From: Bacillota bacterium
GTDB taxonomy: Bacteria > Bacillota > JADQBR01
Direction of reading: 5' to 3'
Assembly: GCA_016278515.1 (NCBI GenBank)
Contig: JADQBR010000002.1
Span: forward strand, 124,001 to 188,000
Length of the DNA stretch: 64,000 nt
Position numbers and translations under genes: made by a program. Of the stretch, positions 7,709 to 17,165 are shown one piece after another. A model generated the notes under the pieces. It did not search any database. It was given only the letters and a program-made list of their open reading frames with translations, and was not told the DNA's origin. Positions within the stretch are counted from its first letter, which is position 1. The number at the start of each line of letters is the position of its first letter.

Positions 7709-10700
7709 ATGTACCTGAAGCATTTGCAATTAAAAGGATTCAAATCTTTTGCACATAAAACGACGATGGAATTTGGACCTGGCATTTCCGTTATCGTTGG
7801 ACCTAATGGGTCCGGGAAGAGTAATATTTCCGATGCCGTACGGTGGGTTCTTGGGGAACAAAGTGCCAAGTCTCTGCGAGGAAGTAAAATGGAGGATATT
7901 ATCTTTTCGGGCAGCAAAGAAAGAAAACCTGTAGGGATGGCTCAAGTTTCTCTTATGTTAGATAACCAAGATGGCATATTACCACTTGACTTTAATGAAG
8001 TGGAAATTACTCGCCGAGTTTTTAGGTCTGGTGAAAGTGATTACTTAATTAATAAGGCTAGATGCCGCTTAAAAGATATTCATGAACTGTTTTTAGATAC
8101 GGGAGTAGGTAGAGAATCTTTTTCTATTATTGGACAAGGTAAGGTTGAACAGATATTGATATCTAAACCGGAAGAAAGGCGTTATCTTATTGAGGAAGCT
8201 GCAGGCATAAGTAAATATCGGTACAGAAAAGAACAAGCCGAAAGGAAATTAGAAGATACTGAACAAAGCATCTACCGCTTGAAAGATATACTACAAGAGA
8301 TAGAGAGTCAATTAGATCCTTTAAAAGAACAAGCTGAGCAAGCCAGAAAGTATAAAAAGTTAAAGAAGGAATTTGATTCTTTAGAGATAAAATTAGCAGT
8401 TAAAGAAATAAAGGGTTTAAAAGAAAGATTAAAACAAATCAATGCCGAAAAAGAAGCCATAGTATTGAGCGCCAACGAACAAGAGGCGCAGTACAGACTG
8501 GCAGAAGCAAATAAGGAAGAGGAAAAGCTATTATTAAAACAAATGGAAGAACTTCTATCTGCATCCCGGACCAATTATCATAGTTTGGAAACGCAGATGG
8601 AGCGGCTCGAGGGTAGTATGGGGGTTCAACGGGAAAAAAAGAGTAATGCGGGAAAAAGACAGGAACAAGTTAGATCGGAACTTCAAAATATAGATAATAG
8701 GCAAACACAGGCAATGAAATCTATGGAAGAACTGCAGCAACAAAAGCTTCAATTAGACAATCAAATAACTGTTCTAAAGTCAAACATCACAGCAATTGAA
8801 AATCAATTTAATGAAGCGCACAATGTTTTACAAAACGACAATCTCAATAATGAACGGCTCAAGAATAAATTATTTGATTTGTTGCACAGTGAAAGTGGAT
8901 GCAGAAATGATTTGGCCCGATTAGAACAAAAGAAACAAAACACAGAGTTGCAAAGGAAACATGTTTTAAGTGGAACTGTTACAATAAGCCAGAAGACCGA
9001 CCAAGTTACTAAACAAAGGCAAGTAAATTATGAAGAAATCAGAAAATGCGAACAAAATGTCGAGCAGACAAAGGAAGAGTTAAATCAATTACGCCATGTG
9101 GTGTCCGATTTAAAATTAGAGCTACATAAGTCAAAGGAGCGGTATCAGAGCTTCCATAACAACTACTCAAGAACATTAAATAAGCTGGAGACGTTGGAAA
9201 ATTTAAGCAGTGAATATGAAGGCTTCTACAAAGGCGTTAAGAATATTTTGGTTGGAAAAGAAAGAGGTATTGGAAAATGCCAAGGAATTGAGGGCGCTGT
9301 GGCTCAATTGATTACTGTACCACAAAAATATGAACTGGCTGTAGAAACTGCCTTAGGATCAGCTGTTCAAAGTTTAGTTTCAAGGAGCAGTGCAGACGCG
9401 GAAGCAGCCATAAATTATTTAAAAGAAACTAAAGGCGGCAGAGCGACGTTTTTGCCACTTGATACAGTTCAACCAAGGATATTTAATAGTCGATATGATG
9501 AATTGCTATCCATGCAGGGGATATTGAGTTTGGCAGTGGATGTAATAAATATTGGAAAAGAGTATAAAGTAGTTTTAAAAAGCCTTTTAGGCAACGTACT
9601 TTTGGCTAGGGATATATCCAGCGCAGTAAAAGCGGCTAGAAAGAGCGGTTTTAGGGTCAAGATTGTTTCCTTAGACGGAGAAGTGATTAATCCCGGGGGA
9701 TCTATGGCTGGTGGTAGCAGTAGTTCAAATGAAACTGGACTGATCAGACGGGAAGGTGAAATTAATCGCTTAAAAGAGCAGGTATCACTTATTGGCAAAG
9801 AAATGGAATCTGCCAACCGTAAAGTAACAGCTAGCGAAAAAGAGCTACAGGCTAATGAAAAGAATATTCTAGAATTACAAGACGAATTGTATAGTCATCG
9901 CAGCCGGTTGCAGGCAGCACAGGACAGACAGAGCGTTCTCAGTAAAGAAATTAAGGACTTGGAGGAAAGGGCCGTAGAGCTTAACTGGCAAGTACAACAA
10001 TTGGAGAAAGAAGAAGAATTAGTTAGCGATCAGTGGGTAGAATTGCAAGCGGGATTAAAAACGGTGGAAAACGATAAACAAGATGTAGAAAATCAGCTAA
10101 ATTCACTTGGTAAAAATAAGGAACAGATGGAAGACAAAAAGACTTCATTAAATGCTGAACTAACAGATAAAAAAATTCAGTTGGCCACTGTTAACCAAGA
10201 AATTCAGGCTTTAATCGAAAAGCAATCTGGCCTCAACGATTTAATATATGATTTAAAAACGACGCGAGAAGAAAGAAAGGCGGAATTGAAAAGGCTGGAA
10301 GAAACAATTAGTGACATAACGAACGACCTGGTTGTTAAAGCACAATCCGCAAAAGAAATTGTTTTAGAGCAAGAAATGGTACAGCAGAAACTGGATAACT
10401 TTATAGAGGAGAAGTCTGCCAAAGAAAAGGAAATTTCTAGGCTGGAATTATTTATCAAGGAAAAACGACAGGTATTGGAAGAATTAGGTAAAGATCTTAA
10501 TCAGAAAGAAATTACTCTAACTCGATGGGATACTGAGAATGATAATAGGGTGTCTAGACTTTGGGATGAGTACCAGTTAACCTTTGAGCAGGCTGCCGCC
10601 GATTATCCGTCAGAAGAAATAGTCAGCGGATCTGGCAAACGATTAAGAGTGTTGCGCAGAGAACTACAGGAATTAGGGACCGTTAATTTAGGCGCTATAG

Positions 10701-11281
10701 AAGAATACGAGCGTATATTTGAACGGAGTAATTTCCTCGACAAACAGTTAACGGATTTACAAGAAGCAAGACAATCACTTAATAAAGTTATTTCAGAAAT
10801 GCAAGTTATTATGAAGAAACGGTTTTTAGAGACATTTAGTCAAGTGAATGAATGTTTTGATGAAATGTTTCAAAGACTGTTTGGCGGCGGAACAGCAGCA
10901 TTAAAATTGACAAGTACAGAAGATGTATTAGCTGCTGGGATAGATATTGTCGCTCAACCGCCAGGCAAAAAACTTAGTCATCTATCTTTGCTGTCAGGAG
11001 GCGAAAAAGCTTTAACCGCTATTTCGCTGCTGTTTGGCATTTTAAAAATAAAACCTAGCCCATTCTGTATTTTGGATGAAATTGATGCTTCTTTGGACGA
11101 AACTAATGTAGATAGATTCGCCCTGATATTAAAGGATTTTTCCGAGCAATGTCAATTTATCGTAGTATCACACCGACAAGGGACGATGGAATCTGCCGAT
11201 GACCTATATGGTGTGACCATGGACAAGTCCGGAACTTCCAAATTAGTGTCAGTTAAGTTAGACGAGAGCCAAGTAAGTTAA
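7709..11281 (+). CDS. smc: Chromosome segregation ATPase SMC
   Basis: Structural maintenance of chromosomes protein; with ScpA and ScpB it forms the bacterial condensin that organises and segregates the nucleoid. The 1190-residue product has the full layout: N-terminal Walker A GPNGSGKSN (31-39), long coiled coil, flexible hinge at about 508-665 (INPGGSMAGG near its end), return coiled coil, ABC signature LSGGEKAL (about 1095) and Walker B FCILDEIDASLD (about 1120). ATG follows AAGGGGAGAGG. It precedes ftsY as in Bacillus, here separated by a JAMM-like gene. Confidence 0.97.
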   Translation: MYLKHLQLKGFKSFAHKTTMEFGPGISVIVGPNGSGKSNISDAVRWVLGEQSAKSLRGSKMEDIIFSGSKERKPVGMAQVSLMLDNQDGILPLDFNEVEITRRVFRSGESDYLINKARCRLKDIHELFLDTGVGRESFSIIGQGKVEQILISKPEERRYLIEEAAGISKYRYRKEQAERKLEDTEQSIYRLKDILQEIESQLDPLKEQAEQARKYKKLKKEFDSLEIKLAVKEIKGLKERLKQINAEKEAIVLSANEQEAQYRLAEANKEEEKLLLKQMEELLSASRTNYHSLETQMERLEGSMGVQREKKSNAGKRQEQVRSELQNIDNRQTQAMKSMEELQQQKLQLDNQITVLKSNITAIENQFNEAHNVLQNDNLNNERLKNKLFDLLHSESGCRNDLARLEQKKQNTELQRKHVLSGTVTISQKTDQVTKQRQVNYEEIRKCEQNVEQTKEELNQLRHVVSDLKLELHKSKERYQSFHNNYSRTLNKLETLENLSSEYEGFYKGVKNILVGKERGIGKCQGIEGAVAQLITVPQKYELAVETALGSAVQSLVSRSSADAEAAINYLKETKGGRATFLPLDTVQPRIFNSRYDELLSMQGILSLAVDVINIGKEYKVVLKSLLGNVLLARDISSAVKAARKSGFRVKIVSLDGEVINPGGSMAGGSSSSNETGLIRREGEINRLKEQVSLIGKEMESANRKVTASEKELQANEKNILELQDELYSHRSRLQAAQDRQSVLSKEIKDLEERAVELNWQVQQLEKEEELVSDQWVELQAGLKTVENDKQDVENQLNSLGKNKEQMEDKKTSLNAELTDKKIQLATVNQEIQALIEKQSGLNDLIYDLKTTREERKAELKRLEETISDITNDLVVKAQSAKEIVLEQEMVQQKLDNFIEEKSAKEKEISRLELFIKEKRQVLEELGKDLNQKEITLTRWDTENDNRVSRLWDEYQLTFEQAAADYPSEEIVSGSGKRLRVLRRELQELGTVNLGAIEEYERIFERSNFLDKQLTDLQEARQSLNKVISEMQVIMKKRFLETFSQVNECFDEMFQRLFGGGTAALKLTSTEDVLAAGIDIVAQPPGKKLSHLSLLSGGEKALTAISLLFGILKIKPSPFCILDEIDASLDETNVDRFALILKDFSEQCQFIVVSHRQGTMESADDLYGVTMDKSGTSKLVSVKLDESQVS

Positions 11282-11350: not shown

Positions 11351-12481
11351 ATGAACATAAAGGGAATAGCTAGACCTTTAGTAGACGTATTGGTAGACCG
11401 AACATTACAATTGAGCCAGGGTAGGAATGCTGGATGCATTGGATTTTTGGATGAAGAAGGAGTAGTGTCGACACATACAGAAATCGTAGATGGTGGATTG
11501 AGCGGAATTCCGTTAAGAATCTTGCTAAGTAAGATGACGTCCATGGAAGGGGCGTCGTTAATTGAAGGTTTGTCTGTTTTACCGGAGCAGTCTGTGATAA
11601 TTATGACGAGACCGGGCAAAACAGGTTTGATTACAGACGTTTCTGGTGTGGATTTCTTTAATATGCCTATAATCAATATAGGAGTCAAAAATGACGGTTT
11701 GGCAGGTATTGGATTAATAACACCTAAAGAGGAACACTTTGATCTGGCTACGGAATCTGAGCAAATTAATTTGGCAACATTAGGTTCTTTAACAATGGAA
11801 GATGAAAAAGATGTTCTGAGGCAAGGGAATTTGCTCAGTTTAAAATATCTTGATGTCAGTAGAGAACTGGAGGCTGTTGATAAGGAGGTAAGCTTAGTTG
11901 AAAATCCGGAAGGAAAGGTAAGACTTAGCTATCCGCGTCTTAGTATAGACGTATTGGATAGAAGTCTGGCTGAACAACTAGTCAGTAAGTCAAAAGAGGT
12001 AGGTCAAGGCCGGGAGGTTGCTACAATAGCTGTTGTGGAAGACGGCAAGGTTAGCTCGGCTGGAAGAATTGTAGAAGGTGGTATGGGTTATGTGCCTTCA
12101 AGACTGCTAGCCTCCAGTGCGGTAGATATTAGTGCAAGATCTTTAATGCAGATTTACGGTGAACTAATTCCCGAAAATGCAGTAATAGTACATACACATC
12201 CTGGCGGGACAGGCGTGATGCATATTGGAGATGCCAATGCTGGGCCCGGCACATGGGGAAGGCCTATCATCGCTATTGGACACGACGCGGTTGGACAAAT
12301 GCGTGGTGCAACAGCCATAGAAGTGAGCGACAAGATTTATCAACTGGCAGATGAAGACGAACGATTAAATCAAGAATTTTTCAACGCCGAGACACCTGAG
12401 ATGGAGAGTAACATCCGCAATCGGAAATTCGGTGTTGCTCAAGAATATACTGATCTCTGCAAACCAATCCAAATACAATAA
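11351..12481 (+). CDS. Tandem JAMM/MPN-like protein
   Basis: Function unknown. The 376-residue product (ATG at 11351 after GGGAGG; a TTG at 11285 in the same frame is less likely) is built of two similar halves. The second half carries HTHPGGTGVMHIGD, with His281, His283, His291 and Asp294: the spacing of the JAMM zinc motif HxH-x7-S-x2-D, with His in place of Ser. The first half has the aligned segment MTRPGKTGLITD from Met85, in which the ligands are lost. Each half also shares a PIIxIG stretch after the motif and a DGG/EGG segment near its start. It lies between smc and ftsY. A JAMM-type metallopeptidase or a non-catalytic descendant is inferred. Homologues may carry misleading viral-protease labels in databases. 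Confidence 0.65.
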   Translation: MNIKGIARPLVDVLVDRTLQLSQGRNAGCIGFLDEEGVVSTHTEIVDGGLSGIPLRILLSKMTSMEGASLIEGLSVLPEQSVIIMTRPGKTGLITDVSGVDFFNMPIINIGVKNDGLAGIGLITPKEEHFDLATESEQINLATLGSLTMEDEKDVLRQGNLLSLKYLDVSRELEAVDKEVSLVENPEGKVRLSYPRLSIDVLDRSLAEQLVSKSKEVGQGREVATIAVVEDGKVSSAGRIVEGGMGYVPSRLLASSAVDISARSLMQIYGELIPENAVIVHTHPGGTGVMHIGDANAGPGTWGRPIIAIGHDAVGQMRGATAIEVSDKIYQLADEDERLNQEFFNAETPEMESNIRNRKFGVAQEYTDLCKPIQIQ

Positions 12482-12554: not shown

Positions 12555-12588
12555 AGATATTTTAATTAATTATGATAGAATACTTACG

Positions 12589-12614
12589 GTTAAGGCGATG
12601 CCTTAACTTTTTTT
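12589..12614 (+). terminator. Intrinsic terminator upstream of ftsY
   Basis: GTTAAGGC / GCCTTAAC around a GAT loop is followed by seven T residues. It separates the smc-JAMM unit from ftsY, which starts 71 bp further on. Confidence 0.85.
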
Positions 12615-12684: not shown

Positions 12685-13605
12685 ATGGCCGGTTTGTTAG
12701 GAAAATTTAAAGAAGGCTTATCCAAAACCAGAGAAGGCTTTGTAGATAAGATATCTAACCTAGTTGCAGGGAAGCGAGAATTTGATGAGGTCTTTTTTGA
12801 GGAACTGGAAGAGATATTTATCCAAGGTGATGTGGGGATGGCCACTACCTTAGATATAGTAGGAAGTCTTAAACGGAAAGTAAAAGAGCAAAAAATCACG
12901 GAGACTAAAGATTTGTATCAAGTTTTGGAGGAACTTATAGTAGAATTATTAGGTGCTGACTCAGTCTTAAACGTCGAGGGCAAGCCAGCGGTTATAATGG
13001 TAGTTGGTGTCAATGGGGCGGGCAAAACTACAACCATAGGAAAACTGGCTTACCAGTACAAGGAGCAGGGAAAAAAAGTGCTAATTGCTGCTGGGGATAC
13101 CTTTAGGGCGGGGGCAATCGATCAATTAGAGATATGGGCAAATAGAGTAGGTACTCAACTTATTAAACATCAAGAGGGGTCGGACCCGGCTGCAGTAGCT
13201 TATGATGCTGTGAATGCGGGACGTTCAAGGGGTGCAGATGTGGTAATTATTGACACCGCAGGACGGTTGCAGAACAAGGCGAATTTGATGCAAGAGTTAC
13301 AAAAGGTGCATCGAATAGTTAGTAAGGAATTGCCCGGAGCTCCCCTGGAAGTGCTGTTGGTTTTAGATGCAACAACCGGGCAAAATGCCATTTCTCAGGC
13401 AAAGGTTTTTAGTGAAGCCGTTGGCGTCACAGGAATAGCACTTACTAAATTGGATGGTACTGCCAAGGGTGGTGTTGTTTTAGGAATTACCCATGAATTG
13501 AATATCCCTGTTAAATTAATTGGCATCGGGGAAGGGATAGAGGATCTTAGGACTTTTGATGGCCGAACCTTTGCTAAAGCTCTATTCACGGGAGAGGAGG
13601 AATAA
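12685..13605 (+). CDS. ftsY: Signal recognition particle receptor FtsY
   Basis: SRP receptor GTPase that docks ribosome-nascent-chain complexes at the membrane with Ffh. The 306-residue product is the compact NG form with little acidic N-terminal extension. GTPase motifs are G1 GVNGAGKTT (108-116), DTAGR (190-194) and TKLD (254-257), plus the SRP-type insertion box with DTFRAGA. ATG follows TTTGGAGGTG. In Bacillus ftsY directly precedes ylxM-ffh; here three salvage genes intervene. Confidence 0.96.
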   Translation: MAGLLGKFKEGLSKTREGFVDKISNLVAGKREFDEVFFEELEEIFIQGDVGMATTLDIVGSLKRKVKEQKITETKDLYQVLEELIVELLGADSVLNVEGKPAVIMVVGVNGAGKTTTIGKLAYQYKEQGKKVLIAAGDTFRAGAIDQLEIWANRVGTQLIKHQEGSDPAAVAYDAVNAGRSRGADVVIIDTAGRLQNKANLMQELQKVHRIVSKELPGAPLEVLLVLDATTGQNAISQAKVFSEAVGVTGIALTKLDGTAKGGVVLGITHELNIPVKLIGIGEGIEDLRTFDGRTFAKALFTGEEE

Positions 13606-15458: not shown

Positions 15459-16757
15459 TTGAGTAAAATTGTTATTCGAGACGGAATTATCCTGCCAATG
15501 ATTGAGAGTTATTCTAAGGATAAAGATTTGTTCTTTAAGGGGAATCTATATATAGAAGATGGCATAATTAAGTCCGTCGGCAATGAGCCTGACAATTGGC
15601 AGCCGGACCAAGAGATAGATGCTAAGGGGAAAATCGTGATGCCGGGATTTGTTAACAGTCATACTCATGCAGCTATGACTCTTTTGCGTAGTTATGCTGA
15701 TGACCTGCCGTTAATGCATTGGTTAGAACAAAAAATTTGGCCGTTAGAGGCTAAGTTATTAGCAGATGATGTCTACTGGGGTACGCTATTAGCTTGTACC
15801 GAAATGATATCTGGTGGCACCACAACCTTTGCAGACATGTATTTTTTTATGAATGATACAGCAAAAGCAGTGGTAGACAGTGGAATGCGCGCATCTTTAT
15901 CTCGGGGAATGGTAGGGGCCGGCCCAACGGCAATGGAGGCCTTAACAGAAAGCAGGCTGTTGGTTGAACGTTGGCATGAGTCTCATCAAGGACGTATTAC
16001 TACTATGTTGGGACCCCATGCACCATATACCTGTCCACCTGATTATTTAGAAAAGGTAATGGACTTAGCTGACCAACTTAAGGTTGGTCTTCATATTCAC
16101 GTCTCTGAAACTGAACAAGAATATGAAGACATAAAAAAACAATACGGAGCCAGTCCTGTGGGCCTGCTAAATCAGATAGGCTTATTTGAGCGACCTGTTT
16201 TGGCCGCTCATTGCGTCCATTTATCTAATGAAGACATGGATATTTTGCAGCAGAAGAATGTCAAAGTAGTCCATAATCCGGAAAGTAATATGAAATTAGG
16301 CAGCGGAATTGCCCCCATTCCTGAATTGCTCGGGCGGAATATTACGGTAGCATTAGGAACAGATGGAGCATCCAGCAATAATAATCTGGATATGATGGGG
16401 GAAATGCGTTCGGCGGCACTCTTGCATAAGGTCAATAAAAAAGATCCTACTGTAATTTCTGCTTACCAGGCTTTAGAGATGGCTACGAAATATGGTGGGG
16501 AAGCTTTAGGTTTGCCAATTGGCGTACTAGCGCCAGGTAAAAAGGCTGATGTAATACTGATTGATTTGAATAAGCCTCATCTCTATCCATTGCACGACAT
16601 CCCGGCCCACCTAGTTTATGCAGCCCAAGCCAGTGACGTAGATACCGTTATCATAGATGGGCAAGTCGTTATGGAAAATAGAAATATTAGAAACATAGAT
16701 CAAGAGAAGCTGTTTTTTGAAATAACCAAAAGAGCGGAAAGACTTACTTCAAAATAA
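15459..16757 (+). CDS. mtaD: 5-methylthioadenosine/SAH deaminase
   Basis: Amidohydrolase that removes the 6-amino group of methylthioadenosine or S-adenosylhomocysteine, giving the inosine form. The product has 432 residues from TTG at 15459, which is 6 bases after AAGGTGA; an in-frame GTG at 15450 overlaps that site. Metal ligands are visible as NSHTHAAM (His68, His70), LHIHVSETE, AAHCVHL and LGTDGASSNNNLDM. It follows mtnP and mtnA in one unit, which fits deamination of MTA before phosphorolysis by the 6-oxopurine-type phosphorylase. Confidence 0.9.
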   Translation: MSKIVIRDGIILPMIESYSKDKDLFFKGNLYIEDGIIKSVGNEPDNWQPDQEIDAKGKIVMPGFVNSHTHAAMTLLRSYADDLPLMHWLEQKIWPLEAKLLADDVYWGTLLACTEMISGGTTTFADMYFFMNDTAKAVVDSGMRASLSRGMVGAGPTAMEALTESRLLVERWHESHQGRITTMLGPHAPYTCPPDYLEKVMDLADQLKVGLHIHVSETEQEYEDIKKQYGASPVGLLNQIGLFERPVLAAHCVHLSNEDMDILQQKNVKVVHNPESNMKLGSGIAPIPELLGRNITVALGTDGASSNNNLDMMGEMRSAALLHKVNKKDPTVISAYQALEMATKYGGEALGLPIGVLAPGKKADVILIDLNKPHLYPLHDIPAHLVYAAQASDVDTVIIDGQVVMENRNIRNIDQEKLFFEITKRAERLTSK

Positions 16758-16759
16758 AC

Positions 16760-16821
16760 TTGACTTGTATTATTAAATCTTGTATTATTATACAGTGTCA
16801 AGCAGAAATACTTTACACTGT
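16760..16821 (+). promoter_or_regulatory. ylxM promoter with inverted-repeat candidate operator
   Basis: TTGACT (16760-16765) and TATTAT (16783-16788) are 17 bp apart, a strong sigma-A promoter. Around the expected transcription start lies an imperfect 12-bp inverted repeat with perfect core ACAGTGT (16792-16798) / ACACTGT (16815-16821). CTTGTATTATTA also occurs twice, 15 bp apart, inside the promoter. The inverted repeat may be an operator or a 5' hairpin; no regulator is identified. Confidence 0.6.
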
Positions 16822-16832
16822 TAGGTGATAGT

Positions 16833-17165
16833 ATGTTATTGAAAACAACACGGATGGTAAATCTATTTGATTTCTATGGAAATTTATTAACTGAAAAACA
16901 GAAACTCATGATAGACCTTTACTATTATCATGATCTATCGTTAGGAGAGATATCTGAACAGTTGAATGTTACTCGGCAAGCTATTCATGATAATTTGCGC
17001 CGTAGCGAAAAGCTATTAGAATACTATGAAACGAAATTACATCTCATGGAGAGACATCGTAATTCTTTGCAAGAGATTAATAAATTGGAGTCTCTTCTTA
17101 ATGCGAAAGATATAAAGGATGGGCAAGTTATTATCAAAGATTTAAAAGAGTTTTTGATTCCCTAA
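16833..17165 (+). CDS. ylxM: YlxM family SRP-associated helix-turn-helix protein
   Basis: Small sigma-like helix-turn-helix protein (110 residues) encoded with ffh in Firmicutes; in streptococci the homologue modulates SRP assembly. The HTH lies at about residues 35-55 ([21 protein letters not shown]), followed by a charged helical tail. It starts at ATG after TTAGGTGATAGT and ends 12 bp before ffh. It is the first gene after a clear promoter. Confidence 0.9.

Follow-up and report, generated by a model that had tools for sequence, protein, structure and literature searches.

A tandem MPN-domain protein with a histidine-variant JAMM site, encoded between smc and ftsY in Bacillota

The gene described here, gene X, lies between two essential genes, smc and ftsY, in a 64,000-nucleotide stretch of DNA from a Bacillota bacterium (the whole stretch analysed, called the window below), and its product, protein X, is an undescribed and unnamed protein that matches no sequence family in Pfam, NCBIfam or the PDB. 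By computation, protein X is a tandem duplication of a domain of MPN fold, and its C-terminal half (C-half) is homologous to known JAMM domains and has a conserved JAMM-type site in which histidine occupies the place of the catalytic serine; the locus is also conserved. We consider it fairly probable that protein X is a zinc peptidase or isopeptidase with a built-in MPN- partner, in which a histidine stabilises the oxyanion as in thermolysin. The gene is found in single copy at one locus across dozens of families, with many spore-forming clostridia among its carriers, and its product offers a bacterial single-chain model of MPN+/MPN- pairing; if protein X is active, histidine can stand in for the JAMM serine, and the family would test in nature the proposed analogy between JAMM enzymes and thermolysin.

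Gene X, its locus and its inheritance

The features discussed are collected in Table 1; the open reading frame and the residues H281, H283, H291 and D294 were all found where the first-pass annotation had placed them.

Table 1. Features of gene X and its surroundings, in window coordinates
Feature	Position	Strand	Evidence
smc, conserved upstream neighbour	7709..11281	+	38/40 loci
Gene for tandem MPN-/MPN+ protein X (376 aa)	11351..12481	+	Open reading frame (start ATG 11351, stop TAA 12481), GGGAGG Shine-Dalgarno upstream, homologues
N-terminal MPN- half, aa 1-180	11351..11890	+	hhalign to C-half 1.7e-34, model, conservation
N-half counterpart of metal motif, M85-TRPGKTGLIT-D96	11603..11638	+	Half-profile alignment, conservation
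C-terminal MPN half with variant JAMM site, aa 197-376	11939..12478	+	AlphaFold pLDDT 93.7, Foldseek PDB list
E222, putative general base	12014..12016	+	Invariant 40/40; aligned with JAMM Glu (RadC, Prok-JAB and HflX-JAMM profiles)
H281-T-H283, putative zinc ligands	12191..12199	+	Invariant; codons at 12191 and 12197
H291, at the place of the catalytic serine	12221..12223	+	His in 40/40
D294, putative third zinc ligand	12230..12232	+	Invariant 40/40
Extended -10-like TGATAGAAT, then palindrome GTTAAGGC-GAT-GCCTTAAC	12573..12607	+	Between gene X and ftsY
ftsY, conserved downstream neighbour	12685..13605	+	40/40 loci

Searched both as a single protein and with all 40 family members, protein X gave only chance matches, none of them JAMM, in Pfam, NCBIfam and the PDB sequences. 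With hmmscan it has no match to PF14464 (Prok-JAB), and a search of the whole genome with that model led to three other places; a literature search for the family by its locus returned nothing relevant. Homologues were collected at 7 loci in a contig scan, in 20 of 101 relatives and in 40 of 398 genomes of the phylum, and the conservation counts given here rest on 40 non-redundant homologues. There is always one homologue per genome, and all are free of stop codons.

Conservation of the position between smc and ftsY, proposed at first pass, holds at nearly all loci: ftsY lies 3' of gene X at 40 of 40 (gap 64-321) and smc lies 5' of it at 38 of 40 (median gap 75). At both exceptions gene X stays with ftsY and smc is elsewhere in the genome, and this arrangement, seen in Formimonas (L003) and in G006/G052, weakens a direct functional tie of protein X to SMC. 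Pairwise divergence of protein X tracks that of FtsY (Mantel r = 0.81, 0/999 permutations), which fits a vertically inherited housekeeping gene. The earlier suggestion of a housekeeping role in spore-formers therefore survives in its first part; its second does not discriminate, as 37 of the 40 genomes with gene X have Spo0A and so do 33 of 40 without it (Fisher p = 0.31), and the three genomes that have gene X and lack Spo0A are incomplete, so we set aside sporulation as a specific role. A mobile origin was likewise rejected, since no protein X homologue was found in plasmids, phages or viral contigs.

Tandem duplication, fold and relatives

When a single protein X is compared with itself by BLASTP, amino acids 1-174 match the C-terminal half with 30% identity (E = 6e-21), and hhalign of the two half-profiles built from the 40 homologues aligns 175 columns with an E-value of 1.7e-34 and a score of 188, against a maximum of 24.3 in column-shuffled controls (n=30). 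The two similar halves noticed at first pass are thus homologous. The C-half profile detects the N-terminal half (N-half) in 40/40 family members (about 1e-20 to 1e-28 in the phylum sample), and in the 398 genomes it found no close single-domain relative and only three weak matches, which indicates that the duplication is older than the spread of the family. Two of these three rejected candidates are JAMM domains fused to HflX (see below) and the third is a membrane transporter-like protein.

Among the 40 homologues the N-half counterpart of E222 is N26 (Asn in 29/40, and still Glu in one, L027), that of H281 is M, T, S, I, V or F, and that of H283 is R, N, S, K or I, so that a half homologous to the MPN-fold C-half has its Glu and both His replaced, as in MPN- proteins. 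The earlier statement that this half had lost every ligand is right for these three residues; for the Asp it depends on the alignment, since D96 faces D294 when the profiles are aligned and is Asp in 32/40. The description of the N-half as degenerate did not hold up, because this half has 16 invariant columns and conserves a motif of its own, TRPGKTGLITDVSG, which points to a specialised rather than a decaying domain. The C-half has 43 invariant columns, and mean pairwise identity is 65% in the C-half and 54% in the N-half.

AlphaFold2, run with the family alignment, modelled both MPN domains in one chain (mean pLDDT 94.9 for the whole chain, pTM 0.90; mean pLDDT 93.7 for the C-half), with an identical order of elements in the two halves. 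In the C-half model a first helix is followed by a strand that E222 begins, by further strands and a helix, by a last strand that ends in H281-T-H283, and by a helix with H291 just ahead of it and D294 at its start, and this is the layout described for AfJAMM (PMC300881). The best 50 matches listed by Foldseek for the C-half in the PDB are MPN/JAMM proteins only, headed by Rpn8-Rpn11 (1.7e-4, probability 1.00) and including BRCC36-KIAA0157 (3.1e-4), eIF3, Csn5 and AfJAMM; the whole chain matched PfJAMM1 first (1.0e-3) and then mostly MPN/JAMM proteins. These E-values are moderate (1e-4 to 1e-3) and the TM-scores modest (about 0.35-0.52 by query length in most C-half rows), so protein X is a distant MPN member. 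As modelled, then, protein X belongs to the MPN/JAB1 fold superfamily, the C-half by its structural matches and the N-half by its homology to the C-half (1.7e-34), and the structure prediction and search proposed at first pass gave no sign of an unrelated fold in either.

In sequence, the direct profile matches of the C-half are weak, with E-values of 0.0034 for Prok-JAB (1/60 shuffles as good) and 6e-4 for RadC (0/60), although these alignments pair E222 with the JAMM Glu and HTH with HSH/HNH. Weak matches of the C-half also led to HflX GTPases with an N-terminal domain of ~190 aa (RE...HTHPLGSGVLSNAD). The C-half profile aligns with the profile of this HflX-fused JAMM domain at E = 8.9e-8 (0/100 shuffles scoring as well); E222, HTHP and D294 line up with their counterparts there, and H291 faces Ser. 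The HflX-JAMM profile in turn matches RadC at E = 2.2e-7; by way of this bridge protein X is homologous to known JAMM domains. Judged by profile comparison, its nearest sequence relative is the JAMM domain fused to the HflX N-terminus.

HflX proteins with such a JAMM-like N-terminus (L110:1425-3272, L111:442-2259(-), L119-L122 and L124-L134) are about 535-700 aa long, and their N-terminal domain has the motif RE...HTHPxGSGxLSxxD and no covering model in Pfam or NCBIfam. They occur in 18 of 101 relatives and are absent from the genome of the window; their co-occurrence with protein X is above expectation (10 vs 3.6, p = 2e-4, phylogeny not corrected). One homologue, L132 (G005:C1:107809-108219), has an in-frame TGA in the matched stretch, which could reflect a pseudogene, a sequencing error or recoding. 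The HflX-fused domains point to a broader and so far unexplored association of JAMM domains with GTPases of the ribosome or SRP.

The variant site and its possible function

The first-pass annotation had recognised in the C-half the spacing of the JAMM motif with His for Ser, and the survey of homologues agrees: H281, H283, H291 and D294 are invariant in 40/40. A fifth residue, E222 in the motif GQGREVA, is equally invariant and had been missed. Measured against E-Xn-H[ST]H-x7-S-x2-D, the C-half has the general-base Glu (E222) in its usual place, on the strand that follows the first helix, and H[ST]H and Asp at the set spacing (H281-T-H283 and D294), and its sole departure is at 291, eight residues after the second His, where Ser is replaced by His in all 40 homologues. 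The comparison motifs of Prok-JAB and RadC have Ser at this site (once Thr), as do 17/17 extracted HflX-JAMM motifs. Since the serine is absent, protein X is best placed as a variant within the MPN superfamily, outside the canonical MPN+ JAMM enzymes. The serine of AfJAMM was proposed by Ambroggio and co-workers to stabilise the tetrahedral intermediate (PMC300881), and the Ser77 hydroxyl sits at the place of N-epsilon-2 of thermolysin His231 (PMC300881), so that a His at 291 is chemically sensible.

The mechanism that we propose is that of a soluble two-domain MPN protein whose ancestor was a single MPN+ (JAMM) domain that duplicated in tandem. Its C-terminal domain would very probably bind one zinc ion, through H281, H283 and D294, and E222 would activate the zinc-bound water; that the domain is a hydrolase at all we regard as probable. 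H291 would stabilise the tetrahedral intermediate in the serine's stead, like His231 in thermolysin, a role by analogy for which we see an even chance. The N-terminal domain, its metal site lost, is likely to be a covalently attached MPN- partner, which, in the way that Rpn8 serves Rpn11, would hold or shape either the catalytic domain or the substrate, across an MPN-/MPN+ interface within the chain. Of the possible reactions, the likeliest would be that protein X cuts a peptide or isopeptide bond of some cytosolic protein on the ftsY (SRP receptor) or ribosome side, an assignment that we offer tentatively. It is rather doubtful that protein X represents a new JAMM catalytic class, combining a permanent thermolysin-like His, a single-chain equivalent of Rpn11-Rpn8 and dedication to a conserved cleavage linked to the SRP receptor or ribosome in this spore-forming phylum.

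A zinc peptidase or isopeptidase is favoured by the invariance of E222, H281, H283, H291 and D294, by the stronger conservation of the C-half than of the N-half, and by the homology of the halves, the confident models, the C-half match list made up of MPN/JAMM proteins and the profile chain through HflX-JAMM to RadC. Against it stand the moderate Foldseek E-values and weak direct Prok-JAB and RadC matches, and the finding that no substrate or ubiquitin-like partner is encoded adjacent to gene X. In addition, Csn5 with its Ser or Glu mutated is inactive, which makes the catalytic serine essential there (PMC300881), and a His in its place might bind the metal or obstruct the site.

This last point leads to the reading, unlikely in our view, that the C-half binds metal and is no hydrolase: H291 would be a fourth protein ligand (His3-Asp) that excludes water, and protein X a zinc- or iron-dependent scaffold or sensor. 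The exchange of Ser for His is fixed, in a position so uniformly Ser in relatives, and the spacing would permit a nearby ligand. Such a role leaves unexplained why E222, which in JAMM enzymes is the water-activating base and no metal ligand, is invariant, and the whole HTHPGG-x-G-V-M-H-x-G-D-A surround is kept, which is typical of an active rather than a structural site. It is quite improbable that protein X is an active metal hydrolase whose substrate is not a protein but a small molecule or nucleic acid, as its neighbours, which include methylthioadenosine salvage and RNA genes, might suggest; several loci with the smc-X-ftsY order intact lack the mtn genes. We know of no proven peptidase activity for RadC, itself a bacterial MPN protein, which counts in favour of such a substrate. 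The function of RadC was listed as unknown in 2003 (PMC300881), but the characterised JAMM enzymes with the motif are peptidases, for example DRJAMM (PMC8832034).

Slightly less probable still is that protein X is a structural component of the SRP or ribosome machinery and keeps its active site for binding, for example of a peptide C-terminus, and not for cleavage. The linkage to ftsY is stricter than that to smc, the closest relative is attached to HflX, a GTPase that splits ribosomes, and several eukaryotic MPN proteins are structural; MPN- proteins, however, lose their ligands, as the N-half has done and the C-half has not. That the motif is coincidental and the fold unrelated to MPN, as the lack of Pfam, NCBIfam and PDB sequence matches might imply, is scarcely credible, being in practice refuted by the matches in structure and by the chain of profiles that leads to RadC.

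The zinc (iso)peptidase reading is framed by several known systems. Eukaryotes cut ubiquitin tags with this domain, with live and dead copies as separate proteins, and the proteasome lid, the COP9 signalosome and BRISC are built on MPN+/MPN- pairing. The pairs Rpn11-Rpn8, Csn5-Csn6 and BRCC36-KIAA0157 each join a catalytic and a dead MPN domain that work together, as the halves of protein X may do; they share extra C-terminal helices with protein X and are its best structural matches (about 10-16% identity), but they consist of two proteins with Ser in the MPN+ member, whereas protein X is one chain with His. The idea, advanced at first pass, of tandem duplication followed by specialisation in the manner of MPN+/MPN- pairs accords with these matches and with the lost N-half site. 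HflX-JAMM shares with protein X the phylum and the RE, HTHP and D in register, and differs in being a single MPN domain on a GTPase, with Ser (HTHPLGSGVLSNAD) for His. RadC (UPF0758), a separate gene in the genome of the window (L061), is a bacterial MPN protein of poorly known function whose Glu, HxH and loop align with the C-half; its motif, HNHPSGD-x-x-PS-x-x-D, has Asn between the His and keeps the Ser, where protein X has HTHPGGTGVMHIGD, and no tandem duplication is seen in it. Prok-JAB (PF14464), the archaeal JAMM proteins PfJAMM1 and HvJAMM1, and DRJAMM, which cleaves MoaD-MoaE (PMC8832034), share MPN fold, Glu, HxH and Asp with protein X, but are single domains that keep the Ser. AfJAMM (1oi0) resembles the C-half in fold and zinc-site layout and differs at Ser77, and thermolysin has a His at the oxyanion position, as is proposed for the C-half, within an unrelated fold and with an HEXXH motif (PMC300881).

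Sequence signals around ftsY and ffh

At about 28 of the 40 loci the gap between gene X and ftsY contains an extended -10-like box, TATGnTAAAAT, followed directly by a palindrome, GGTTAAGG-N3-6-CCTTAACC, which shows some compensatory changes (e.g. L020 and L030) and whose exact sequence occurs nowhere else in most of the genomes tested. No Rfam family was found in the region, and the palindrome could be an operator, a start-site hairpin or a terminator. The box and palindrome together suggest that ftsY has its own promoter and start, and gene X is more likely to be the end of the smc transcript.

Upstream of ylxM-ffh in the window (16757-16833) there is a strong TTGACA/TATAAT promoter, and after it, close to where transcription should start, comes a similar palindrome. 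The ylxM-ffh palindrome reads TGTAAAG..CTTTACA or TGTTAAGG..CCTTAACA, and is found likewise at L113:5487 and L114:1436 and in L040, L041, L045 and L052. Since similar palindromes precede both ftsY and ylxM-ffh, the two SRP genes ftsY and ffh may be under a common operator, to which YlxM, an HTH protein, perhaps binds. In one group of genomes (L040-L042, L044 and L047) the X-ftsY gap lacks the hairpin, and ahead of the FtsY match it looks open, acidic and rich in lysine and glutamate, as would be expected if FtsY carried a lengthy charged extension at its N-terminus there.
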